Source: Bacteroidota bacterium
GTDB lineage: Bacteria > Bacteroidota > Bacteroidia > Cytophagales > Cyclobacteriaceae
Direction of reading: 5' to 3'
DNA length: 64,000 nt
Assembly: GCA_016178785.1 (NCBI GenBank)
Contig: JACOSO010000062.1
Coordinates: forward strand, 1 to 64,000
Position 1 is the first letter of the stretch, and each line of letters opens with the position of its first letter. A model generated the notes under the pieces. It saw only the letters and a list, made by a program, of their open reading frames with translations, was not told the DNA's origin and ran no database searches. Shown here piece after piece: positions 1,281 through 57,003 of the stretch. A program made the position numbers and the translations under genes.

Positions 1281-4200
1281 GTCATTGTGATAGCTGAACT
1301 GGTACCGCTGCAACCTCCCGATACTGTTACAATAACATCTACCTGGTCGGCATTAGCGAGCGTTGCAGAGTTGTAAATATTTGAAGCCCCGTTCTGAACT
1401 GATCCACCATTAACTCTGAAATCATAGTTCGCCCCACCCGAAGGCGTAGCTGTAAATCTTACATTAGTGCCAGCACAAATTGTATTGTCCGCATCATCGC
1501 TCACTATACTAGCCGTAAAACTTGAAAAAATAGTTAGCGTCACTACAGTTGCCGTGCTTCGGCATCCGCCAGTAGTTTGAGTAATATAAACGGTAGTTGA
1601 TCCCGCACTTGCGCTGCTAAATCCTAACTCAGCAGCTGTAGGATTTGCAGGATCAACAGTTGAAAGTGTTGAGGTCAATCCTGCATCACTATACCATTGA
1701 AGTGCTGTTCCCGTAGCTGTGGGAGGCGTGATCGTTGCCCCAATACAATAACTATTAACAGGAAAGGATACTGAAGGTGCTGCAGGAGGACTTGAAACTG
1801 TAATGGTTGTATTGTCAGTGTTCGTAATGCCATTGCCATCTGTAACTGTAACCGTGTAGACCGTTGTAGAGGTTGGAGATGCAGTTGGATTGGGAACATT
1901 AGTAGCGCTTAATCCCGTAGACGGAGACCACGAATAAATCAATGTAGGGTCGCCAGAAGCCGTAGTTCCTAATGCCACCGAATTCCCTGAGCATATCGAT
2001 ACCCCCCCGCCTGTAATGCTAGCCGATGGATTAGCCCCTGTGATGCCTGTGAAAACAGAAGTAAGCCCAGAAGTAAGGGATGCCCCGGTTGCATTCAGTG
2101 TACTTGCACCGAGCGCTGAGAACTTAACCCAGGGATTGGAAGTCTGATTAAAAGCTCCACTTAGTTGAGCCGCTTTTATGGATGTTTCTGTGCCTACCAC
2201 ATCGCTGGCAATATCATATGTACCTGTAATTGATGCGATGCAACTCGTGACACCGGTTTGAGTAATGTTCCAGTAACGGGTTAAATAATTTACAGCGCTG
2301 ACATTTGAAGAATGTTTAGCATCGGCAACTGACGCACTCAGCGAATAAGTGGCTCCAATACTTCCCGAAGTAACTGTCACATCAACCGGAGAATAAAATG
2401 TGTTGTCACCAATTGGAAACGTGAATAGGGAATTTATCGAGGTCAGTACTTTTATTAATTTCCCAGTGCTGCTGGCAATTATTCTTTTTGCTGATGTGGC
2501 TCCGGAAATCGCCCCCGATGAACCTATTGTTAAATCATTTGATCCTATATCTATGTTTCCAGCACTTAGTGTCAAAGTACCGTTCACGGTGGTACTGCCG
2601 GCCAGTAATGCATCTCCACTTGACTGGGCAATAATCAAATCATGGTAAGTACCTGTATTGATAGTTTGAGAAGAGCCATTAAATGTTACTGAGTTGCCAG
2701 AATTACTTGCGTTAATGGATGAAACAGCAGACGATCCTGTGATTACCAATGTAGCATTTGGCGCCTGGGTGAAATTGCCCGTCCCAATCAAAGCATTTGT
2801 CACTGTAAGACTATTGTTATTGGTAAGTGAAATGCCTGTGACGGTCACGTTCGGAATAGAGAATGTTCCTGTCAGCGATTGCGAATTTGTATTGAATGTA
2901 TGAACTCCTGAACCGGCTGTAAATGTGCCACCGCTTCTGGATATGCCTCCTCGGAAGATAACATCCGAATTGCCTGAATTATTCCATGTAGCACCAGCAG
3001 AAAGTGTGATCAGTCCTTCAAAAGTTTTAGTGCCTGTTGAAGACGTTATCGATAGATTACCACTGGCACCTCCGCCTATTTGAGTAAGGCCTGTGACTGT
3101 AAAATCAGAACCCGCAATCGACAGAGCAGATCCGTCACCTATGGAAAGATTTCCGTTAACAGAAATCGTTCCTGATGATCCGCTAAAGGAGCCTCCTCCG
3201 GATACTGTTAACCCTCCATTAAATGTCTGGACTGCTGTCGAAGCCAAATAAGATCCACCACTCACTGTAGTTAGGCCAGTAACCGTACTCGCCAATCCAT
3301 TCGCGTCAAAGCTGCCTGATGAATTAGTGAAAGTTCCTCCAACAGTTAAAGCGCTGGTAAACAATTGCAGTGTGCCTGCACCTGTATGGGAAATGTTATT
3401 GAAGGAAGTGCCTACGGAATTTATTGTTTGGGTGCCGGCTGCTTTTATAAAGGTTACTGTATTCGCTGCAGGAGCAAACGCACCTCCCGTCTTTGACCAA
3501 TTTCCGGAGACACTAAACACTCCGGATGGCGCTGTAAGCGTGCCACTCGTCACGTTAACGTCAGTAGTTGTTACAGCTCCGGTTGACCCGGTAAACGCAG
3601 CTCCCGATATAGTCAATCCTCCATCGAATGATTGAAGTGAAGTCGATGCCAGGTAACTCCCTCCGCTTAACGTAGTCAGACCCGTAACCGTGTGGGTCAG
3701 CGCATTCGCGTCAAAAGTGCCCGAAGAATTTGAAAACGTTCCAGCAGTAGTCAATGCGCTAACTGACAATTGCAACGTACCTGCTCCAGTGTGGGATATG
3801 TTGTTGAATGAAACCCCGCCTGAATTTAAAGTTTGTGTGCCTGCCGCCTTGGTAAAGGTCACGGTGTTCGATCCCGGAGTGAACGTACCTCCGGTTTCTA
3901 GCCAATTGCCTGAAACACTAAATATGCCTGAAGGAGCAGTAAGTGTGCCGCTGTTCAAGGTTACATCACCAGCGGTTACGGCCCCGGTGGATCCGGCAAA
4001 CGTACCACCCGATATCGTTAAACCACCATTGAATGTCTGTAAAGCAATGGATGGCAGGTAACTTCCTGCGCTCAAAGTAGCCAGCCCCGTAACTGTGTGA
4101 GCCAACGTATTCGCGTCAAATGTTCCTGAAGCGTTAGTGAATGTTCCTGCTGTGGTCAGAGCACTTACCGATAATTGCAAAGTGCCTGCCCCGGTATGGG

Positions 4201-7252: not shown

Positions 7253-8349
7253 TTTTTTCTACTCTTCTTTAATCCCAATTTTTGTAATATCCCAGCAACG
7301 GCTGGCTTCCTTTTACGCGGATCATACAGCGGCTTTATATACCCAATCGTGAAAGAAAGATTATCCAATCTGAATAAATCCGATGCGTACGGGTAGTCGG
7401 CCAATAACTTATCGAATTGTCCGTTGCTGTCAGTGTAGGTATTCTTTGCTATGTTATTCAATCCCATGAGGTATCTAACATCTACAAACAAAAAGTTTTT
7501 AGCCACCTTATACTTTGCCCCCCCGCCTATCACAACTGACCTGTTGAAGAAATTTCTTTTATAAGTAATGGGAACATCTGGTCCCTGCGACACTTGTTGC
7601 ACTCCTGTGCTTGGTGAATTAAAGTCAATGGCCTCTGCCGACAGTTTTGCCCCCAAGAGAAGATTTGCAGAAATACCCGCGTACACGAAAGGTCTGACCC
7701 TGCCTGAATCATCTGAGTATTTTACGAACACTGGTATGTCAATCCAATCCTGTTTTTCAATAAAGGTGTTTTTCATACCTGCATCTGCATTGCTCAAATT
7801 GACCTTGAACAACCTCCGAGAATAGCCAAGCCCAAAGCAGATACTCCAGCGTTCGTTAAGGTTCCAATCAAGAGCCCCGCCCAACTGATATCCAATCTTA
7901 TAAACATTTTCATCATTGGTTGGCGAAGCGATGGTGTTAATCGAATAAATGGTCCGGGGCAGTGAAGTGTTAATCCCTGCTCTGAAACTCGGAGTAAACA
8001 CAGGAGTAGTTGTGAATTTTTTACTGAGGTAATAAACATCAACCGGATCTCGTGAGGGATTTGTTACAAATTCAGGATCTGCTGTGAGCAGCTGCAGGTA
8101 ACTGTTTTCCGCAGCTATCGGATCATTTAAGATCAAATAGGATTGGGTGAGCAAAAGATACGAACGTACTTTTTGCTCCTTCGAAAAGCCGTTATCCAGG
8201 CAAGGCTTGAGAATACCGGGTAGGTTATAAAATCGTCCCGCATCAAATTCAGCGCTGGCTTGATTCAGGGTTTGCTCACAGTCTGCGCTTTGACTTAAGC
8301 CGGCTGTTGAGAGTAAGACAAGAAATAGAAATGATATAAATCGCACCAT
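7249..8349 (-). CDS. TPR-like plus outer-membrane beta-barrel protein (PorT-like fold)
   Basis: The 366-residue protein has a signal peptide (about residues 1-19, ending GLSQ). Residues 20-110 are helical and TPR-like (AGRFYNLPGILKPCL, SYLLLTQSYLILN). From about residue 120 there are alternating amphipathic strands with aromatic girdles (GYQLGGALDWNL, RWSICFGLGYSRRLF, VDVRYLMGLNN) ending in LSFTIGYIKPLYD, typical of the Bacteroidota outer-membrane barrel family that includes PorT. A Lys/Arg-rich tail of about 25 residues follows. Such an N-terminal TPR-like module is common in Bacteroidota barrels associated with surface complexes. Its start overlaps the stop of the NTPase gene by 1 bp and its end overlaps the lipoprotein start by 4 bp. 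Confidence 0.8.
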   Translation of the reverse strand: MVRFISFLFLVLLSTAGLSQSADCEQTLNQASAEFDAGRFYNLPGILKPCLDNGFSKEQKVRSYLLLTQSYLILNDPIAAENSYLQLLTADPEFVTNPSRDPVDVYYLSKKFTTTPVFTPSFRAGINTSLPRTIYSINTIASPTNDENVYKIGYQLGGALDWNLNERWSICFGLGYSRRLFKVNLSNADAGMKNTFIEKQDWIDIPVFVKYSDDSGRVRPFVYAGISANLLLGAKLSAEAIDFNSPSTGVQQVSQGPDVPITYKRNFFNRSVVIGGGAKYKVAKNFLFVDVRYLMGLNNIAKNTYTDSNGQFDKLLADYPYASDLFRLDNLSFTIGYIKPLYDPRKRKPAVAGILQKLGLKKSRKK

Positions 8350-11300
8350 CAGTTGTTATTTAGTGATGGCAGATTGGAACAAGTTTGCTCGTACGGAAGA
8401 TCGTTGCCAACATAAATGCCCCATTCTTCAACAGTCATATTGCGTGACAACTTCGAGCAAATTTGATCAGCGAGAGTTTTAGGATCGGTAGGCCAAATCC
8501 TGATTTCTCCGTTATTGCAAGAAGCCAACAGATGATCAGAATTCTTAGAGAAGGCCAGTTTCCAAACATATCCATTATTGTTGTCCATTACAATGGGCAA
8601 GTCATTAACGTGATCAACCACCCACATTTGGAGTTTACGATCAAGGCCTGCACTGGCCAATAACAATCCATCATGACTGAACTCAAGATCAGAAATTGCT
8701 GCCCTGTGCCCGCCCAATTCTTTCTCCACTTTCATAGCGTTGATGTCAAACAATTTCACCGTGCCTCTTCTTTCTTTTATTAGTTCAACTCCATAAGCAA
8801 CGGTAAGTTTTTTAGGATGGAAAGCCACTGAAAGTATTCGATTGGGTGACTCATCCCTTAATTCCTTATAAGAGTAATCGTTCAAATTCACGAGAACCAG
8901 TTTACCAGAGGTAGAACCTGCCACAAGAAATTTTCCATTTGTGCTTATGTCGATTGATCTTATATCGAAAGGGAGAGAAAGTATCTGTTTGCTGCTGCCG
9001 GTCAGTTGATTTGTAAGGCGCAAGGTCTTGTCGGAGGATGATGAGATGAAGCCAGAATTATCCGGAAGGAATTTGATGTCGGTGACCAAACCCGTGTGCC
9101 CTGAAACAATGACCGGAGACTTGCCGGGTTCTTCCAAGTTGAAAATCTCGACATAACTTGAATCACTTCCGTTGACTAAATATTTCTCATCAATGCTCAG
9201 CGCTAGCACGCGGTTGGGAAAATTCTTTTCGTTTAAAAGTTTATCTGCCTTTTGTGAAACATAATCACCCTGAAAAATACGACCATCGTTTCCGGTGACG
9301 AAAAAAGTTGATGAAACATTGGATGTGGTCACTGCAAACATTTTATTCTTGAAATTTCCAGGAATTTTCACAATATTATAATTGATACCCATTAGTTTAG
9401 TCAAGGCATAATAGAGGCCTCTGAAAACGTAAGGGTCATTTTTTTTTCCTCCGTTTTGCCTGTGATACACATATCCCTGAAGGGCAGTAGAGCCAGCCAA
9501 ATCTTTGTCATCAATCCCTTCTGATTTAGCTTCCAATGACTGAGCAATGGAAAGCATCAAACGATTGTCAGATATCGCCTTTAAACTATCTGCCCGCTTC
9601 GATTCCATAGTAGCAATGTTGGACTGCAGCTCAGCGTTCTCTTTTTGAAAGACTGCCTCAGTAAAATTCTTTTCGGCCAGTTTTCTGAGGCTGTCGGCTC
9701 TAAAAATTTGATGACCCAATTCTTTATTTGATTGCTCCAAAAGATCACGCTGCCTTTCTATTTGAGATTGGTTGCGAATGACTTCCTGTGATTTTTTTTC
9801 AGCGATGTCTCTTTGTTCTCGTGCTTCTTTACTCAACTGCTCTGCCTTGTCTTTTTGCGCATTGGCGATAATCAGGTTCTGCTCTGCGGCTATACTGTTG
9901 ATCAATCCGTAAAAGAAAAAACCAATAGCTACCATCAGGAAAAGAGCCAACACCAAGTTTGTGGCCCGTGCTCTGCGCAGCATTCTTCGCTGGAGCATTT
10001 CCTGATTTTTGAGCTCGGCCTCATAAGTGATTCGGCTGGTGTCCAGAAAGACAATGGCTCGCTCAAAAGCAACATCATAACGTTGGGCCCACGCCCGAGT
10101 GGGGCGTTGTTTTTTCTGCCAGTTGAGTGCCAATTGCAAATCGGGTGGCCGCCACAAACTTGTGCGCCCAATCTGGTACATGGCAGCAGCATCTGAAACC
10201 CGCTTGTACATCTGTGCGGATTCAAACTCTTCCTCCACCCAAGATGAAAGCCTTGTCCAGATCCGCATCAAGCTTTCGTGAGAGAGTTCGATCACGGACT
10301 CTGCACTGAGCGCAACACTGGCTCCAGGCATCAAAAAAGAGCGACCTGGCCGTCTGAAATTATCAACCACATCTATCACCTCTTTCTCCTGCGCATTGGT
10401 AAGCTCGGCTATCAACCCTACTTTGGCCGGCCTTCTTAGTCCTTGATTATTATCTAGATTTCGTTCGGTTATGGTTTTGAAAAGAATCTCAGCAATTTCT
10501 TTCTGGCGGGGGCTTAATTCTTCAAAGGCTTCATTCGCATGCAATGACAGCGCCTGATCTATCTTCCCAATGGAATTATAATGCCTGATATCAATGGGTT
10601 CGTTTGCATCATGATTGTTTTGCCAGTATTCCCAAGTGCGCATCATGGCGTGCTGAAGAATCGGGAGCTGATCCTGGTTGTCACCAATATCGCTCAACAA
10701 TCGTTTTACAAGCCTTGATGAAATTTTTGCACCACTCACGGCAACCGGCCCTTCAATCGCCATACGCTTTTGTTCGCGAGTCATTTGGGGAACCAGGTAA
10801 TTGCTCGCGTTGATCATTTCGGTGAGCCCCGGAAACTCAGCACAGTCTCCAATAAAGTCGGAGCGCATATTCAAAGAGATGTAAATAGGCACTCTTCTTT
10901 GTGAAACTGCACGAAGGATCAGGTTTACGTAAGCAGTAGCCTCATCAACATATTCCTCACTTGCGTTTTCCGAATACCTGAAGAGTTCTTCGAATTGATC
11001 GAACAAGAGAAAAATATTTTCGTTCTCGTCTTTCTGAACAAATCGAATTAATTCAATCAACCCATCCGGGCCACTTCTAAGTACGGAACTGATAATCGCA
11101 CGATGTATATGCTTGTCTTCTTCTTCAATTCGTTCTGACTGAATCAAAAAATGAAGAATAGATTCCGTTAGGTTATTTATAGGCGAATTTCCCGGGCGAG
11201 TGGTGAGGATGCTCCAGAATGGACCCGTCTCAGTCGTGAATCCCCCATAAAGAACGGGAAGCAACCCGCAATACATTAAGCTCGATTTACCACTTCCTGA

Positions 11301-11507
11301 ATAGCCCATCACGGTGATTGATCGATGGGCGGATAGTTTCAACAATATATCATCCACCTGACCTTCGCGCCCAAAGAATAGGTAACACTCCTCCATAGTG
11401 AAGGCGCGTAACCCAGGAAATGGGTTAATATCAAGCTGTGCTTCTGAGAAGTTATTTTCAGAAACCGACTCTTCTGTCATGCCAACTTTGACAGGTAAAT
11501 TGGACAT
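8349..11507 (-). CDS. Membrane-anchored STAND NTPase with coiled coil and WD40 propeller
   Basis: The 1,052-residue protein begins with an nSTAND1-like NTPase domain. NPFPGLRAF is at about 28-36, the Walker A motif GYSGSGKSS at 68-76, the Walker B stretch LLFDQFEELF near 167-176, then LPILQHAMMRTWEYW and LSHESLMRIWTRL, all hallmarks of this family. A single transmembrane helix lies at about 516-538, followed by a charged coiled coil of roughly 120 residues (540-665) and then WD40 repeats to the end. STAND proteins are signal-gated switches. Here the sensor-like propeller appears to be on the opposite side of the membrane from the NTPase. It is the first gene of a tightly packed unit with a barrel, a lipoprotein and the giant surface protein. 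The ligand and output are unknown. Confidence 0.85.
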   Translation of the reverse strand: MSNLPVKVGMTEESVSENNFSEAQLDINPFPGLRAFTMEECYLFFGREGQVDDILLKLSAHRSITVMGYSGSGKSSLMYCGLLPVLYGGFTTETGPFWSILTTRPGNSPINNLTESILHFLIQSERIEEEDKHIHRAIISSVLRSGPDGLIELIRFVQKDENENIFLLFDQFEELFRYSENASEEYVDEATAYVNLILRAVSQRRVPIYISLNMRSDFIGDCAEFPGLTEMINASNYLVPQMTREQKRMAIEGPVAVSGAKISSRLVKRLLSDIGDNQDQLPILQHAMMRTWEYWQNNHDANEPIDIRHYNSIGKIDQALSLHANEAFEELSPRQKEIAEILFKTITERNLDNNQGLRRPAKVGLIAELTNAQEKEVIDVVDNFRRPGRSFLMPGASVALSAESVIELSHESLMRIWTRLSSWVEEEFESAQMYKRVSDAAAMYQIGRTSLWRPPDLQLALNWQKKQRPTRAWAQRYDVAFERAIVFLDTSRITYEAELKNQEMLQRRMLRRARATNLVLALFLMVAIGFFFYGLINSIAAEQNLIIANAQKDKAEQLSKEAREQRDIAEKKSQEVIRNQSQIERQRDLLEQSNKELGHQIFRADSLRKLAEKNFTEAVFQKENAELQSNIATMESKRADSLKAISDNRLMLSIAQSLEAKSEGIDDKDLAGSTALQGYVYHRQNGGKKNDPYVFRGLYYALTKLMGINYNIVKIPGNFKNKMFAVTTSNVSSTFFVTGNDGRIFQGDYVSQKADKLLNEKNFPNRVLALSIDEKYLVNGSDSSYVEIFNLEEPGKSPVIVSGHTGLVTDIKFLPDNSGFISSSSDKTLRLTNQLTGSSKQILSLPFDIRSIDISTNGKFLVAGSTSGKLVLVNLNDYSYKELRDESPNRILSVAFHPKKLTVAYGVELIKERRGTVKLFDINAMKVEKELGGHRAAISDLEFSHDGLLLASAGLDRKLQMWVVDHVNDLPIVMDNNNGYVWKLAFSKNSDHLLASCNNGEIRIWPTDPKTLADQICSKLSRNMTVEEWGIYVGNDLPYEQTCSNLPSLNNN

Positions 11508-11625
11508 CGGATAAATTAAAAGTATCTATTTGTTAGTTGAAGTCTACATAGACAGGTAAACTCACAACATCCAAAAAATCAAAGATATAAATACTCAGTT
11601 TAAAAACTTAATATACGCATCAAAT

Positions 11626-14600
11626 TCAAATAAACTGCAAAAACTTGTCCGTAAGCTTTACATGGTCGGACAATATCTCATAGAATTGGTCTTTGTTGAT
11701 CTTTAACAATGTAGAGTCTTCCTTGCCAACCAATAAATTGGTATTAATAAAGCCTGGCGCAGAAAGCATCTCCCCAACAAACTGACCTTTATGAAAATCC
11801 TTAACATACCGGCTATTCTCGAAATACTGCACTGATCCGCTGTAAAGAATATAAAAGTCGTTGTTCAATCGCTCATCTACCGATAAATATTCGCCGGATG
11901 ATAGCTTTTGTTCTTTAGAAATATCCGCAAGGTACGAAAGGATCAGGCCGGGGATCCCGTAAAACACGCTTATGCTTTGGAAAAAAATTATTTTCTCGTA
12001 CAACATCAGCTTATGACCCGGCACATCTTTCAGCACCGCTCGGTCGAGCCAGCGTTTTTGGATTTCTTCAAGCCGGGGGGCATTGGCAAAATAATGCCCT
12101 GGATCTATTTGATGGAGAGACCAGCCTGCCACCTCGCGAATCAACCGATCGGGGTTGAAAAGCTGCGCTATAAGGTCCAATTTAAAGTCTGCAATTTTCT
12201 GAATACCTATCTGATGAATCACGGTGGCTTTTGTCCAACGATTGGTTTGAGTAAAATCGCGATTGACCAAAAATTTCAATGACAACTTGGCGTCAAGGCT
12301 TACTCGTGGGAAAAATACTTCGAGTCTTTTAATTTTTTCGCTGTCACTTAAATCGTCAAGTACGGGAATCACTCTCATTTTCAATTGCTCAGAAAGAAAA
12401 ACATCAAGCAGCTCAACCGCATAAGTTGTTCCCTCTGATGTTCCACTCTCAATATTTTCTTTCACCAGTTGAATTGACCTTGTATCGTATAACATGGCCA
12501 GCAGCATGTAAATGTGCTCTATGTCATGGCTTATCTCCTGACGAAGGGCGAGTCTTACTTGGTCACTTGGTTGGCCTTCGCCTAATTCGCGGATAGCCCC
12601 CAGATTCCAGGTCAAGTCAGCGATATCGGTTTCTATGGCATATTTGATGCGTGTAACCTGTGCTATGCCGGCCTTAAATCCGCATTCGCCCAATGAGAGA
12701 AGCACCTGAGACACGACAACCTTGTCAGGATAATCAATCTTGTTCCATAACAGCTCCTTCGCTCTGGTTCCCCCAATGCGCCCAAGCACTTGCACGATAC
12801 GCAACATAATTTGCGTGTTCTGGCCTGATCGATAAAAACTACTATCCAAATAATTCAGCGCAGCAATACCCATCAGTACAAGTGAGTTCATGGCAAGATT
12901 GGAGTATTGCGGATGGTTAAGGTTTTCTATCACCGCATTGATTACTTCACCATTAAATTTTTTTGCAGAAGTAGCCAAAGCGGTTTTTCTCACCTTAGGG
13001 TCTGCATCATTCAAAAGCTCAATAAGAAAAGAAGTACTCTCGCTTGAAGACGAATGCAGAAGCAATTCAGCTGAATAGTGGCGATCACCAGCGTCAGTTG
13101 AACGAGCCAATTTTTGAATCCTCAACTTAGTGATTTCCCCACCGCTTCTCAGCACCTGCTCCAGGTCTATCCCTGTCAGAATATTCTTTCCATCACGATT
13201 GGTATTTTTACCGATTCGGATGACATAATTCTCTGAAACGGAAAGCCCCTTCATCTCATTCATTCTTCTCTGAGCATAGTCTTGCGCCTCTTCCTGGCGG
13301 TTTTTCATCAGCGCATTTACCCATGCGCTCACCTTTGATGGATTAAGTTTTTCCAAAAGCTTGAATGAAAAGATTGCCTTCGAAGTTTTTCTGTCGGTCA
13401 GTTGCGATTCTAACGTTGTTGTGATTTGTGCAAAGCCGACCTCCAATTTGTCTTCATGAAATTCTGAGCTTTCCAACTTGGACCGGATTTTACTCCGATA
13501 CCCTTGATGCAAATTCCGAACAAGCGTGATGTAAACTGCCCCAAGGCCAAGAACCATTATAGGTATCCATACTATTTTGAAAAACAAGAACTGGCTAAAT
13601 GCAAATACGATGAGACCTGCTATGAACCTGCCTGATTCATTGATTACTCCTTCAATTTTGGACTGAATTCCAAACCGGTAGCGGCTGTCGAGAGGAATGA
13701 ACATAAGTTTGTAAACCGGATTTTCAAGAGAATCGCGAAGCATGCTATTGAACAATCGAGTTAGTGCGACAAAAAGGAAGAAAAAAAGAAACGCCTGACC
13801 CGAATCAACTGAAAATCCAAAAATGGCACTTGAGAGGACAGAGCAAAATGCAAAAATGCAAGTGACCACAGGCAATATGAAAAGGGAAACCCGCAAACCA
13901 TATGTGCTTATCAACCGGTCGTTGACAAACGTTTGCATCACCAAACTCAGCAAATAGATCGTACCATTAAAATAACCAATGAAGTTTGTCAAATCGCGCT
14001 GAACCGGGTACTGCCGATTAAGCAAGGTTTGAAATGAGTATTGATTGAAAATAAAGGTGACCATGGATGTAACCAGAAACCACGCCAGCAGCACAATGTA
14101 TTTATCCTTAAACATTCTACGAAACCTTGTCTCTTGTTTCAAAGAGACATCCATTTTCTTGGTAATGGTAAATTTTGTTGCAATCGCAATCACAAAGGCG
14201 AGCGCTCCTATTATGCTCAAATTGCAAATGACTAAGTAGTCACTTGTGTTCTTAAAAAAGCCCGTGGTAAGAGGAACAAAAAAATTGGCTGCAATAATGG
14301 CGATCAATTGACCGGTATCGATCCAACCGATGATTCGCTTAGACTGCTTAAAGTTGAAGAGTCTTCCAAAAATGCCCCAGTAGCACAACAGCAATATTGC
14401 CGTGGTGGGCCCGGTAAGGCAGTACATCAGAAAAAGCACATCATTATGCTGTGCGGGATCGCCAAAACGATACAAATAATAAACAACCGAAGTTATAGAC
14501 AAGATTACGGCAAGACTACTGATGGTAAGCGCAATGAAGCGAATGCGGTTCTGGAAGTAAGTAAAAATAAGGGTCGAAAAAATTCCAAAAATACCGGAGT

Positions 14601-51446: not shown

Positions 51447-52433
51447 ATGTACGGAGGTGGAAATACATTCGAGGGAATAAAGACAGATAGCATTGCACAG
51501 GAAGACCCGCAACAACTGGCGGCTTTTGAAGCCCGTATTGCGAGGGGTGAAAAAATTGAGCCCATGGACTGGATGCCGCAACTTTACAGAAAGCAGCTCA
51601 TCCGCATGATCGAGCAGCATGCTCACAGCGAAATCATCGGAGCATTGCCGGAAGGAACATGGATCACACGTGCACCTGGTTTCAAACGTAAAATGTCTTT
51701 GATGGCCAAGGTTCAAGATGAAGTAGGCCATGCACAATTGCTTTACAGCGCTGCCGAAACTCTTGGCAAGCCTCGCGAGCAAATGATCGATGATCTCATC
51801 AATGGCAAATCAAAATATTCTAACATATTTAATTACCCCACTTTTACTTGGGCAGATTGCTGTTTCATTTCATGGCTTGTAGATGCAGGAGCAATTGTAA
51901 ATCAATTGGCAAACGCAAAAGGAAGCTATGGTCCTTATTGCCGTGCACTTGATCGCATCTGTGCAGAAGAATCTTTTCACTTGAAGTACGGACATCATTG
52001 TGTTATTTACCTCGCCAGTGGCACACAAAAGCAGCGCGACATGTTTCAGGAAGCAATCAACCGCTGGTGGCCACCGATGATGCACTTCTTCGGACCGAGC
52101 GATAAAATTTCTGCACACACTGAAATACTCATGCGCTGGAAAGTGAAGATGGGTACTAACGATGACATGCGTAATCAATTTCTTGACATGTACGTGCCAA
52201 AAATCTGGGAGCTTGGATTCACTATTCCTGATCCTTTGTTAAAGAAAAACCCTGAAACCGGTAAATGGAACTACACCGAGCCCGACTGGGAAGAATTCAA
52301 GCGCGTGATCAATGGCGATGGCCCTTGCAACAAAGAAAGATTGGAAGTACGCAGAATTGCCGAAGAGCGCGGCCGCTGGGTACGCGAGGCTCTGAAAGTC
52401 CCTTCAGCCGAATATGTAATGCCACTTGCTTAA
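51447..52433 (+). CDS. paaA: Ring-1,2-phenylacetyl-CoA epoxidase subunit PaaA
   Basis: The 328-residue protein is the catalytic di-iron subunit: the metal-binding Glu/His pairs are visible in [11 protein letters not shown] and [12 protein letters not shown], with a conserved [19 protein letters not shown]-like start. It epoxidises phenylacetyl-CoA in the aerobic phenylacetate pathway. In most genomes paaB follows directly; here the next paa gene lies about 4 kb downstream, beyond the cassette-like insert. No lesion is visible in paaA. Confidence 0.96.
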
Positions 52434-52505: not shown

Positions 52506-52937
52506 ATGAGTAAACGGACAATTACTGGACTATTGATTGGTGGCGAACTGGTTATAGGGGCACTACTTGGACGTGCTTACATTAGTCAATACAGTTTTCT
52601 GACATCAACGCAGTCTCTTGGACAATTTTTCGCGACAGTGATTCTAATTTACTCTGCGACAGTGTTTTCGCTCGGAACAATTAACTTAAGGCTAATTAAA
52701 AAATCAGAAACAAAGATTATAATACGTTGCATTGTGACTTCATTGGCACTTGGGACAATTTTCGCGGTACCAATTTTAATTTTGAATTATGAGACGGTCG
52801 ACAATTTGGACTTTTGGGACCTAAGCCCATTTGTTGTAATTCTTATTGGACTGGTAATTGGGTTTAATTTTCAAGTCTTAAGGGCAAACTCAGTAAGCAA
52901 CAACGCCACACAATCGAGTAGGCGGCCTCGCCAGTAG
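52506..52937 (+). CDS. Cassette-borne hypothetical membrane protein
   Basis: The 143-residue protein has four hydrophobic helices (ITGLLIGGELVIGALLG, FFATVILIYSATVFSLG, CIVTSLALGTIFAVPILIL, PFVVILIGLVIGF) and a polar C-terminus. I recognise no family. The reading frame crosses the boundary into the group II intron and stops at a TAG within intron domain VI, so the last roughly ten residues are intron-encoded. The natural C-terminus would be different in the intron-free form. Confidence 0.6.
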   Translation: MSKRTITGLLIGGELVIGALLGRAYISQYSFLTSTQSLGQFFATVILIYSATVFSLGTINLRLIKKSETKIIIRCIVTSLALGTIFAVPILILNYETVDNLDFWDLSPFVVILIGLVIGFNFQVLRANSVSNNATQSSRRPRQ

Positions 52938-54779
52938 AAACTGACGAGGTGCGCCTCTCACACCACTGTACGTACGGGTCGCGTATACAGCGGTTCATTA
53001 AGTTGTGGAGCTACTTTCTCGTAATAAAAGAGCAAGGATTCATAGCCTCTTTTGATCAACCGCTCCAAGGTAATGGTCGTGGTCATCATCGGGCTTTGGG
53101 CTACTGCCCATCCACCCATTCGTGTCCTGCTCCATGCATAGGCTTGACCTCGAGGAACACCGAGGCGAATAAAATTCTTCATTCTCCTGTCAGCTTTCTT
53201 CCAGTCTTCCCAGATGCAGTACCTTAATCGGTTGCGCAGCCAACTGTCGAGCTCCCTGAGTTTGCTTTGTATATTTCCCATACGGAAATAGTTGAGCCAA
53301 CCTCGTTGGATTTCTTTCAGCTTGGCGATGCGTTCATCGAAGGTACTTGGTGCGGTTTTCCTGGTGATGGATTTCAAACTTCGCTTTAAGGCTTGCCAAC
53401 TTTTGTCGTTGACCACCAATTGGTATTTGCCCGTGTCGCCTTTCTGGTATGTGGGCACAAAGTTGTAACCCAGTATGTTAAAGTGTACGGGTTTGCGGAT
53501 GCCACTTTTCTCCCGGTTGATGGGCAGCTTCAATTTGTTCTTTAGGAACAAGTAGATACTGTTGCCCACCTTGCGGGCGGTGGATTTACTTTTGGTGTAG
53601 ACACTAAAGTCATCCGCGTAGCGTACATAGCGATGTCCTTGCTTCTCCAGTTCTTTATCCAGTTCATGGAGCATGATATTGGATAGCAACGGACTTAACG
53701 GGCTGCCTTGCGCAACGCCTTTTCTTCGTTTGACCAATCGTCCCTTTATTACTATTGGGGCTCTTAGCCATTTACGAATGAGGCGTAAGGTTAAAGGACA
53801 TTTCACCTTGCCGTACAGCAGTTGCAACAGAATACAATGGTCCACTTCATCAAAGAAGTTCTTCAGGTCTATGTCCACGATGTGATCATAGCCTTCATGG
53901 ATGTTCTTCTGCGCTTGCTGCACCGCTTGGTGTGCATTACGGTTCGGTCGGAAGCCGTAGCTGTGTTCGGTAAACTCCAATTCAAATTTTGGACTCATCA
54001 CTTGGCTAACCGCTTGTTGTAACAAACGATCCGTTACGGTAGGGATTCCAAGAAGCCGAACCTTCCCGTTGCTCTTTGGTATTTCTACCCCTAAGATGGC
54101 TTGAGGTAAATAGCTCCCATTGCATACGGCCGTCACGATCTTATCCTGTTTTTGTTCAGGTGCTCTATCAGTGATCTTACAGTCATACCATCCACGCCTG
54201 CCGAACCTTGGTTCGACATCACTTGCTGATACGCCTTGCGCATGTTCTTTCGGCTAACTACTTTTTCAATCATCTTACTACTACTTTGTTTCTCTGTTCC
54301 GCTTATCATAAGGCTTCCCGATAACTATCGGGATCCTTACAGCATTTGGAACAACTCAATGTTTGGCCCTTCATTGGTTTGTGAGTCCTCCGATTCTTTC
54401 CATCGGCTCGTTGCTGCCAACTACTATGACCTCTGCTGACTTCTCCTCGATGTACTCGACATCAGGAGACCTCCCCAGGTAAGAGCATATTCCCTGCCTG
54501 CCGGTAGGCAAGCTTCTTCCGATCCCTGCGGTATCTACTCCATGAACTTTATTGGTCAGGGACGTTGTGAAGATGTGCTCACTTATCCACTTCATGCAGC
54601 CTCGGTATACCGTTCCTGTTCGTCAGTACCGGAGTTTGTAGTCTCGCTTCCTTCAGTGTATGCTTCACAGCAAACCACCTTGCGACTTACTATCAGGCTT
54701 TACCAACTTGCCTGTGAGAGACTCCCACTCTCTGGAATATCCAAGGTATCTTCGATACCTTTGCTCATGCTGGGCGCAC
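52913..54779 (-). mobile_element. Group II intron, about 1.87 kb
   Basis: The 5' end reads GTGCGCCCAGCATGAGC on the minus strand (starting at 54779), the typical start of bacterial group II introns. The 3' end has a domain V hairpin (52963-52996, with arms ccgctgta and tacagtgg on the minus strand) that overlaps the end of the RT gene, and a domain VI hairpin (52926-52949) before the end ctactcgat at about 52913. Domain I-III RNA occupies 54274-54779. It interrupts an attC-like site and is oriented opposite to the cassette genes. Confidence 0.8.
52958..54273 (-). pseudogene. ltrA: Group II intron reverse transcriptase/maturase, one frameshift
   Basis: The first part reads MIEKVVSRKNMRKAYQQVMS and MTVRSLIEHLNKN, from ATG 54273. 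It then stops; the next frame continues with VTAVCNGSYLPQAILGVEIP from about 54145. One missing base in a CC/GG pair near 54146 explains it. The rest is complete: GFRPNRNAHQAVQQAQ, AQGSPLSPLLSNIML, the catalytic YADD, and the maturase X domain (IQRGWLNYFRMGN). No HNH endonuclease domain is present. The C-terminal coding end overlaps intron domain V. Confidence 0.85.
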
Positions 54780-54955
54780 ACAATGTGCATATTCAATTTG
54801 GCGGGTTCGGTGTCCTCATTAAGTTTCGGTTTCTTTATTTATTTAAATTGTGTCGTGGGACAGGGCGCAACTGGTCGGTCTTGGCATTCCGCTTCGTTTC
54901 ATTGCCAAGCCCTCCTATTCCCGCCCGCCACAAACCCCAACGTTGGGATTAGGCT
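54780..54955 (+). repeat. attC-like element, right part (interrupted by the intron)
   Basis: Joined with 52898-52912 across the intron, it forms a long imperfect palindrome: caacgccacac on the left, then atttggcggg and cccgccc arms, with a gcaactg word and a 12-bp palindrome cccaacgttggg (54936-54947 region). The site ends in an acgttggg core before the Lgt gene. No coding gene is seen in 54780-54985. Confidence 0.5.
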
Positions 54956-54985
54956 TAAAAGCGGGACAAAAAAAATTAAACTGAA

Positions 54986-55846
54986 ATGGGAATAGATTTC
55001 ATTCATTGGAATATTGATCCTGAGATTATTAACATAATAGGTTTCTCATTGAGATATTATGGGATCTTGTTTGCAGGCGGAATAATGCTCTGCACTTTTA
55101 TTTTGAAATGGATTTTTAAAAATGAAAATATCTCATTGGGCAAATTAGATACACTCACTATCTATGGAGTGGTCGGAATTTTTGTAGGGATGAGATTAGG
55201 TCACTGCTTATTTTATGACCCATCATATTATTTCAATCATCCGTTGGAAATGCTTTTACCTATCCAACTAACAGATACCGGAGAATACAAATTCACAGGT
55301 TATCAAGGCTTGGCAAGTCATGGAGGGGCTGTCGGATTAATTATTGCCCTGATTCTTTATTCAAAGAAAACACAAGAGTCAATAATAAACACAGTTGATT
55401 TGATTGGAGTGGTTGCACCTTTAGGTGGTTGTTTTATAAGACTCGGTAACCTAATGAATTCTGAAGTGATTGGGTTTCCTACGAATGTTCCCTGGGCTTT
55501 TATTTTTGAACGTGACGACAATTTGCCGAGACATCCAACACAGCTATATGAAGCCATTTCTTATCTATCGATTTTCTTGCTGACTTTCTATTTATACAAA
55601 ACGAATCGACCCAAATTAAAAAATGGGTTCTTTTTTGGGATATCAACTTCATTAATATTCATAGCACGATTTTTTATTGAATTTGTAAAAGAAAGACAAG
55701 TTCCATTTGAAGAACAAATGCAGCTTGACATGGGACAATTATTGAGTATTCCGTTTATCTTAGTTGGGTTGGGGTTTGCCATTTATGGACTATTGAAAAC
55801 AAAAAGGGATAAACAGGAAAATGAGTTATTGACAACATTTGACTAA
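54986..55846 (+). CDS. lgt: Prolipoprotein diacylglyceryl transferase, cassette-borne copy
   Basis: The 286-residue protein has seven hydrophobic helices and the Lgt signature motifs: ASHGGAVGL (catalytic His region), GCFIRLGNLMNSEVIG (the RxGNxxNxE motif), RHPTQLYEA, and a final region ending in EFVKERQ. It would attach diacylglycerol to the lipoprotein Cys. All key residues are present, so it is probably functional. Its position between attC-like sites suggests a mobile second copy, although whether another lgt exists in the genome is not visible here. Confidence 0.9.
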   Translation: MGIDFIHWNIDPEIINIIGFSLRYYGILFAGGIMLCTFILKWIFKNENISLGKLDTLTIYGVVGIFVGMRLGHCLFYDPSYYFNHPLEMLLPIQLTDTGEYKFTGYQGLASHGGAVGLIIALILYSKKTQESIINTVDLIGVVAPLGGCFIRLGNLMNSEVIGFPTNVPWAFIFERDDNLPRHPTQLYEAISYLSIFLLTFYLYKTNRPKLKNGFFFGISTSLIFIARFFIEFVKERQVPFEEQMQLDMGQLLSIPFILVGLGFAIYGLLKTKRDKQENELLTTFD

Positions 55847-55852
55847 TGCCCT

Positions 55853-55983
55853 ACGCCAACAAAAGCTAAATACAATTGCTGGGTGAAGTGTTTAATTTAA
55901 GTTTTATCTTCGTCAATAATTTGGTCACGAGGACAGGACGAGGTTTCAAACACCCGCAACTGCGTTTAGCCAGACGTTAGCCT
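55853..55983 (+). repeat. attC-like site after lgt, about 131 bp
   Basis: Left arm words gccaac (55855-55860), gctaaa (55865-55870) and caattgctgggtg (55873-55885) pair with right arm words cacccgcaactg (55951-55962), tttagcc (55965-55971) and gttagcc (55976-55982), with bulged bases. The right end is a GTTAGCC core, six of seven bases like the integron GTTRRRY consensus. Confidence 0.6.
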
Positions 55984-56385: not shown

Positions 56386-57003
56386 TTGAAGTCACTCGAT
56401 CCACGTGTTACCCGCCTCCCGCAAGTTGGGGAAGTGAAACCGAAAAGACCCTTAGATCAATTTGGTACTTTTGAAGTTTTCGTTCAGCCGAAAGAAGGCA
56501 AACCTTTTCAACATGAGGGCCCTGTACACGCACCGAATTTGGAGATGGCTTATATTTTGGCAAAAGAAACATTTACACGGAGATTTACCTGTACTTCAAT
56601 TTATGTAGTTGACACTCGTGACGTGTTAGTCTCACCAACGACTGAAGGAAATCAAAGTGCATACGAGTTAATTACAGCAAAGCCTGCCGGATCTCAAAAA
56701 AAGATTTTTGAAATTTATCAGCTTGCCAAGCGCGGAAAGCAACATGTGAATGCAGGGAGTGTAGAAGCCGACTCTCCCGAACAAGCGATGCTGCTGGCAA
56801 AGGATTTATTCAATGCAGGAAAAATAGTTTATAATGTGTGGGCGATTGAAAAAGATAAAATTCGCTTCACTACAACCGAAGAAAAAGATCTGTGGAACAC
56901 TTTACCCGAGAAAAAATTCCGCGATGCATCTGACTATAAAGGAGGAGATAAGTTGAAGGAGTTTTTAACTCGTTCCCAGTTGCCCGATACCGGTATTCAG
57001 TAA
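56386..57003 (+). CDS. paaB: Phenylacetyl-CoA epoxidase subunit PaaB, tandem form
   Basis: The 205-residue protein starts at TTG 56386. The family's usual length is about 95 residues. Here the first half (FGTFEVFVQPKEGKPFQHEG, MAYILAKETFTRRFT) is a PaaB domain, and the second half (IFEIYQLAKRGKQHVNAGSV, AMLLAKDLFNAGKIVYNVW) repeats the same pattern, so it is an internal duplication. PaaB bridges the epoxidase subcomplexes. It is first in the second half of the split operon. Confidence 0.88.
   Translation: MKSLDPRVTRLPQVGEVKPKRPLDQFGTFEVFVQPKEGKPFQHEGPVHAPNLEMAYILAKETFTRRFTCTSIYVVDTRDVLVSPTTEGNQSAYELITAKPAGSQKKIFEIYQLAKRGKQHVNAGSVEADSPEQAMLLAKDLFNAGKIVYNVWAIEKDKIRFTTTEEKDLWNTLPEKKFRDASDYKGGDKLKEFLTRSQLPDTGIQ

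Follow-up and report, generated by a model that had tools for sequence, protein, structure and literature searches.

A group IIC intron has very probably entered an attC-like recombination site, by retro-insertion into its folded bottom strand, in the DNA analysed here, the first 64,000 nucleotides of contig JACOSO010000062.1 from a Cyclobacteriaceae genome (GCA_016178785.1), hereafter called the window. The preliminary description of this DNA had noticed an intron lying inside an attC-like site, an observation that we confirm, and had read it as a group IIC-attC intron, an interpretation that our analysis supports. IIC-attC introns, as far as the part of the literature consulted describes them, insert into the bottom strand of attC, at TTGT/T in the R'' box and antisense to the cassettes, and encode a reverse transcriptase (RT) without endonuclease (PMC7923331). 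Judged from its sequence, the window intron appears to work in the same way, and it belongs to a widespread family of Bacteroidota introns that mostly insert into attC-like hairpins. New here are this Bacteroidota intron clade, how commonly it uses attC-like sites, and the unusual type of recombinase that accompanies the host arrays; within the portion of the literature on such introns and on Bacteroidota integrons that was covered, we found no description of these introns or host arrays.

The intron and the site it interrupts

The features discussed below are the following.

51447..52433, plus strand: paaA, left flank of the insertion (Pfam, gap comparison)
52506..52912, plus strand: cassette 1 reading frame, no Pfam match, running into the attC-like site and intron
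52904..52912, plus strand: left piece, on the R'' side, of the interrupted attC-like site (placed by homologous uninterrupted sites)
52912..52912, minus strand: IBS3, T, first base of the 3' exon
52913..54779, minus strand: group IIC intron of 1,867 nt, both RNA ends present, with GTGCGCC start and CTACTCGAT end
52913..52995, minus strand: domains V and VI (RF00029 match and fold)
52958..54136, minus strand: main frame of the RT/maturase, with RT motifs including YADD, a maturase domain and no endonuclease domain seen
54133..54273, minus strand: N-terminal part of the RT in another frame, stop-terminated (coordinates from the sequence)
54504..54674, minus strand: domain I core (RF02001 match)
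54574..54576, minus strand: putative EBS1, ACA in the D1 loop GCACAUCU, pairing with exon TGT (from covariation)
54780..54783, minus strand: IBS1, TTGT, end of the 5' exon
54780..54950, plus strand: right piece of the interrupted attC-like site, with L'', VTS, a decayed L', and R' with CGTT at 54941-54944
54986..55846, plus strand: cassette 2, prolipoprotein diacylglyceryl transferase (Lgt; Pfam)
55854..55982, plus strand: second, intact attC-like site (attC scan, -18.0)
56386..57003, plus strand: right flank, taken to be paaB, partly from its position

The intron interval 52913-54779 had been proposed earlier and is borne out by both ends: on the minus strand the RF00029 model of D5-D6 stops at 52913 (37.0 bits, E 3.8e-5, short of its gathering score of 40), GTGCGCC marks the 5' end at 54779, and those copies in relatives that extend to the 3' end share the same last intron base. 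Two further Rfam models, RF02001 (107.8 bits) and RF01998 (37.1 bits), match the intron above their gathering scores. RNA folding, suggested beforehand as a check, gave a D5-D6 structure of -45.4 kcal/mol (z -4.7) with a bulged, branch-point A at 52919 and the predicted ends, and the catalytic domains of a group II intron are thus present, including D5 and a D6 with bulged A. The intron had no match in the phage collection searched with it.

Once the intron is removed, the joined attC-like site reads ...CGCCACACA|ACAATGTGC... The preliminary description had the intron interval right, but its exon junction CACAC|ACAATG does not hold, since base 52912 (A) belongs to the left exon. In eight distinct homologous uninterrupted sites of related loci (matches starting no more than 5 bases from the junction; a ninth row is the window itself), an A stands directly before ACA(A/C)TGTGC. 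Homologous sites served to define the junction because neither a relative nor an empty copy of cassette 1 was found in the 57 other genomes searched. Both the TTGT at the 5' exon end (54780..54783, minus strand) and the antisense placement, with a minus-strand intron between plus-strand cassettes, were as first described, and on the attC bottom strand the junction TTGT/T falls within the R'' box.

The restored palindrome itself stood in part. Its arms score -13.5 kcal/mol against a shuffle mean of -4.8, and none of 100 shuffles was as good; the L' arm has decayed relative to sister sites and most of its pairing is lost, so that the site is weaker than its intact neighbour at 55854-55982 (-13.5 versus -18.0). 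The two arms of the window site pair poorly, and a chimera formed by recombination between two intron copies was considered and rejected because both arms lie on one side of the intron. When attC-like sites were aligned (n=21, of which 20 come from a Cyclobacteriaceae MAG, G024, and from contig C71 of the window's own genome, and one from the window), 11 of 13 predicted pairs had compensatory changes on both sides. Another alignment of such sites suggests a nearly continuous L-box, in which case they may be without extrahelical bases.

Reverse transcriptase and intron phylogeny

The class C assignment proposed from the sequence agrees with the Rfam matches, with D5-D6 and its bulged A, with the similarity to the GsI-IIC RT and with trees. 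Among solved structures the nearest are the GsI-IIC RT (298 bits) and 7uim_D (274 bits), by name a group II intron RT/maturase and presumably the Eubacterium rectale IIC enzyme; LtrA scores 123 bits. In the main RT frame the Pfam matches are confined to RVT_1 and GIIM, with no endonuclease domain, as had been described. The enzyme is therefore nearest to those of class C and lacks an endonuclease domain, the trees holding few non-C outgroups. Phylogenetic placement of the RT had been named as a check, and the window RT falls among sequences most of which count as class C because their introns target terminators, in trees with few non-C references.

The window RT and 23 other Bacteroidota-type RTs form one clade (97/100) in a tree of 43 RTs; with six divergent congener RTs and one truncated row dropped, a tree of 36 RTs unites it with 22 others (100/100). 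Two rows inside this clade, from MAGs named Ignavibacteriaceae and Scytonema, may be misbinned contigs. The window intron could also be a direct member of the proteobacterial IIC-attC lineage, transferred horizontally to Bacteroidota and nothing new in kind. That reading, which we regard as possible although rather doubtful, accounts for the shared target rule and orientation, and a grouping of the Bacteroidota clade with the intron of an IMP-4 plasmid is not rejected (p-AU 0.116, with a single presumed IIC-attC reference and a long branch). This reference is an intron antisense to the blaIMP-4 cassette, whose own exon junction could not be located. Against it stand the long Bacteroidota branch (100/100), beside which the IMP-4 intron, the one presumed reference, does not fall, and the distance of proteobacterial plasmid RTs, the best of which are about 41% identical to the window RT among the matches listed.

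In the window copy the RT gene is frame-broken near its N-terminus, and related genomes carry an intact gene of 438 residues. No other close copy of the intron was found in the same genome, and since the RT frame is broken as well, the window copy is probably immobile. The break itself is possibly an assembly error: in G024, which is of the same genus as the window genome and by its intron copies corresponds to the Cyclobacteriaceae MAG SSA6 (CP058703.1), 12 full copies are 99.0-100% identical, and in 8 of the 12 the longest open frame is not of 439-440 residues in spite of 99-100% DNA identity. All 12 full SSA6 copies are inserted at TGT/T, and in the SSA6 arrays the introns are likewise opposite in orientation to the cassettes. 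A further RT of the window's genome (C14:3303-3845) was rejected as a second copy of the intron, being 46% identical and giving no Rfam match above gathering scores. It sits at the end of a 3.9-kb contig (G000:C14, L013), which on our impression may be foreign to the genome.

Insertion targets and attC-like arrays in Bacteroidota

A scan for relatives, with one genome per species, returned 97 RT-relative stretches and, among the matches listed, 78 distinct loci, compiled without a filter for TGT. The GTGYGCC intron start is recognisable in 63 of these 78, and TGT precedes it in all 63; it is absent within range in the other 15. The intron end CTACTCGAT was found in 62 of the 78 and is followed by T in 60 and by G in 2, the latter being head-to-tail intron junctions. 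At these, in L061/L107 (G028:C79, JAHBUB010000080.1) at 3876 and in L108 at 1877, the sequence reads CTACTCGAT|GTGCGCC, the intron end directly joining an intron start, which reflects either two introns in tandem at a single site or repeats that misled the assembly. L107 also carries a second, spurious GTGTGCC farther upstream. The exon base at -4 is variable in the Bacteroidota clade and only TGT/T is kept.

For the attC test, an AACG core was sought with an arm able to pair with the 34 nt immediately preceding the junction, and the pairing was compared with 100 dinucleotide shuffles. Sites qualified with 120 nt or more of 5' exon, which gave 64 (59 loci among the matches listed, four plasmid copies and the window); as TGT was required when loci were chosen, the counts are not an independent test of TGT. 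At a threshold of no more than 1/100 shuffles 54 of the 64 are attC-like, and at no more than 5/100 the number is 56; L098, L107, L118, L119, L120, L138, L153 and L161 fail at 5/100. These rows are not independent, gut Bacteroidales L135, L136, L137, L139 and L140 sharing one site and seven rows coming from SSA6, so that fewer independent events are represented.

Comparison introns from plasmids behave differently: 10 of 13 were attC-tested (left out were L102, with no start found, L251, with no plausible start, and L259), and none of the 10 is attC-like at no more than 1/100, one being so at 2/100, whereas in 9 of the 10 a local hairpin reaches -10 kcal/mol or better, and in all 10 at least six of the last nine exon bases are T. 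This difference bears on whether the window intron is an ordinary terminator-targeting IIC intron that landed by chance in an attC-lookalike hairpin. Class C introns do usually insert at terminator motifs, according to the part of the source consulted (PMC4424553), and the window site is among the weaker attC matches. Its relatives, however, repeatedly occupy attC-like sites without a hairpin and T-tail (set medians of -3.0 kcal/mol for the local hairpin and 3 T in the last nine exon bases), and repeats matching the right part of the window site occur in 26 of the 58 genomes searched, its own included, so that we consider a chance landing highly improbable. Insertion directed at attC-like sites remains the preferred reading.

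Comparison of EBS1 with IBS1, another suggested check, showed ACA in the D1 loop facing exon TGT. Across 64 aligned introns the loop is CACA in 62 and CACC in 2, and both CACC introns lie on Adhaeribacter plasmids where GGT replaces TGT in the exon; for the remaining rows TGT had been required or checked at selection, so that their association with the loop is not an independent test. As loop and exon change together, this natural double change (ACC/GGT) supports the predicted EBS1-IBS1 pairing.

In the window, each cassette-like gene between paaA and paaB is followed by an attC-like palindrome. The cassettes have probably been inserted there, away from the recombinase on contig C71, because the paaA-paaB gap is 3,952 nt in the window, whereas in the 22 of 26 related loci with both genes it never exceeds 709 nt. 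For this comparison paaB was sought within the fetched 1.5-kb flank and minus-strand gaps were read from coordinates; paaB was out of reach in 4 of the 26, and for G001 and G003 none was found within 7.8-8.5 kb either. In the congener G001 (L220 / L245), where paaB is absent within ~8.5 kb, the sequence after paaA (GGCGTTGTGCG) resembles a cassette junction, and an attC scan after paaA there gave no site. Besides the cassette-borne lgt, the genome has a second lgt on contig C25.

Around 21 genes for recombinases of the C71 type, the attC scan found 62 attC-like sites in 163.7 kb, at 17 of the 21 loci, always on the recombinase's strand in every listed case; the remaining four loci, where none was found, are short and lie at the ends of contigs. 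Near 17 other tyrosine recombinases, hand-picked and presumed Xer-type by length, there was 1 site in 256.9 kb (1 of 17 loci). The 21 loci were chosen, similar matches at G008:C10, G011:C134, G013:C108 and G014:C20 being left out. Arrays of attC sites thus adjoin the recombinase, the arrangement expected of an integron, as far as the system is concerned; no recombinase match was found on C53, the contig of the window pair itself. A complete Chryseobacterium plasmid carries recombinase and antisense intron within 9 kb, with seven attC-like matches on the same strand as the recombinase and one on the opposite strand. Against this, scans of 19 kb in each of two plasmids, one of Persicobacter with recombinase and intron and one of Chryseobacterium oryzae with a related recombinase, gave no site.

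The IntI-specific insert of the catalytic domain is not present in the host recombinase, which in alignment has 21 residues where IntI4 has 64, with flanks aligning on both sides; the short spacing is common to all 21 recombinases aligned. TIGR02249 matches the recombinase in two pieces, with a gap at ~183-237, and stays below cut-off (211.5 versus 265 for the whole own protein); no match in 39 genomes, own included, reached that cut-off. The best NCBIfam model is XerA-like ("site-specific tyrosine recombinase/integron integrase"; 214 versus a cut-off of 220). The recombinase (L012 7451-8650, minus strand) has an extra N-terminal part of ~110 residues (1-110) without Pfam match, and a single-sequence structure prediction of the C71 protein, with mean pLDDT 39.8, was not used. 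In Acinetobacter baylyi pJAT2044 (L263, 2967-3632), a recombinase 52% identical to the Bacteroidota one over residues 157-389 stands beside tet(X3), a similarity that may hint at the origin of the tet(X3) region; an attC scan of that region gave no site.

The palindromes might instead be some other repeat, such as a transposon end or a REP-like or regulatory hairpin, an explanation that gains from the missing IntI insert of the nearby recombinase and from the fact that the recombination role rests on sequence. The R''/R' cores and compensatory L-box changes, together with the array layout and its co-orientation with a tyrosine recombinase, argue for recombination sites and make this explanation unlikely.

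Proposed mechanism and comparison with known systems

The intron's ends, its target and orientation, the covariation of EBS1 with IBS1 and the repeated use of attC-like sites in Bacteroidota are consistent with the following course. Intron RNA and RT would recognise the attC hairpin, much as a terminator hairpin guides other class C introns, and EBS1 (ACA) would pair with TGT at the hairpin foot, in the R'' box. Reverse-splicing between TGT and T of the attC bottom strand would leave the intron antisense to the cassettes. Priming of the cDNA by the replication fork is suggested by the RT lacking an endonuclease, this being the route given for endonuclease-less introns in the part of the source consulted (PMC4424553). 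The R'' box would then be split, and cassettes 1 and 2 would for that reason no longer be separable at the window site. The host attC sites are taken to be part of an integron-like system whose tyrosine recombinase lacks the IntI-specific insert; the window's two cassettes lie apart from that recombinase, between paaA and paaB.

More broadly, Bacteroidota may hold a phylum-wide integron-like system with XerA-like recombinases without IntI insert, including rAID, whose attC-like sites have been largely overlooked; on these a specialised intron clade would have come to target attC separately from the IIC-attC introns of Proteobacteria, its insertions being usable to map cryptic recombination sites. 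We put this forward tentatively, as quite conceivable yet short of an even chance. If it is true, such mapping could extend even to Bacteroides, Phocaeicola and Prevotella of the gut. Because it inserts at the hairpin foot with single-base precision, the intron reports, independently and at the level of sequence, the places at which attC-type hairpins fold, and the intron family marks little-described integron-like gene arrays in Bacteroidota. Processing of folded attC by recombinases without IntI insert becomes testable, as does gene acquisition by rAID and other Bacteroidota cassette arrays.

The closest known counterparts are the proteobacterial IIC-attC introns (S.ma.I2, Kl.pn.I3), which, in the material consulted, resemble the window intron in target, orientation and endonuclease-less RT. 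They differ in that the window RT belongs to a Bacteroidota clade of its own, ~41% identical at best to the plasmid RTs listed, in that the Bacteroidota host arrays are served by a recombinase without IntI insert, and in that the -4 exon base varies there. Terminator-targeting class C introns of Firmicutes, Pseudomonas and Enterobacterales plasmids resemble the window clade in their RTs and in having a hairpin upstream of where they insert, but they follow a strong hairpin and T-rich tail, whereas the Bacteroidota clade mostly follows attC-like hairpins.

In gut Bacteroidales, rAID clusters have, according to the part of the source consulted (PMC12247911), a tyrosine recombinase followed by short genes in the same orientation, with conserved motifs between the genes, a layout like that of the Bacteroidota host arrays. 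The recombinase of a rAID-like Parabacteroides distasonis plasmid is 46% identical to the host recombinase over residues 118-389, and at 7713-13844 of this plasmid (L265) co-oriented genes follow the recombinase, several of them annotated as T6SS immunity or SMI1/KNR4. Unlike rAID genes, the window cassettes encode no recognisable T6SS immunity proteins (Pfam gives Lgt or nothing), and the attC scan of the rAID-like Parabacteroides region, with its related recombinase, gave one weak site only (-14.6). With integrons and CALINs, finally, the Bacteroidota arrays share attC-like sites with R and L boxes, short cassettes and a position beside a tyrosine recombinase, and they depart from them in the missing IntI-specific insert of this recombinase and in its co-orientation with the array.
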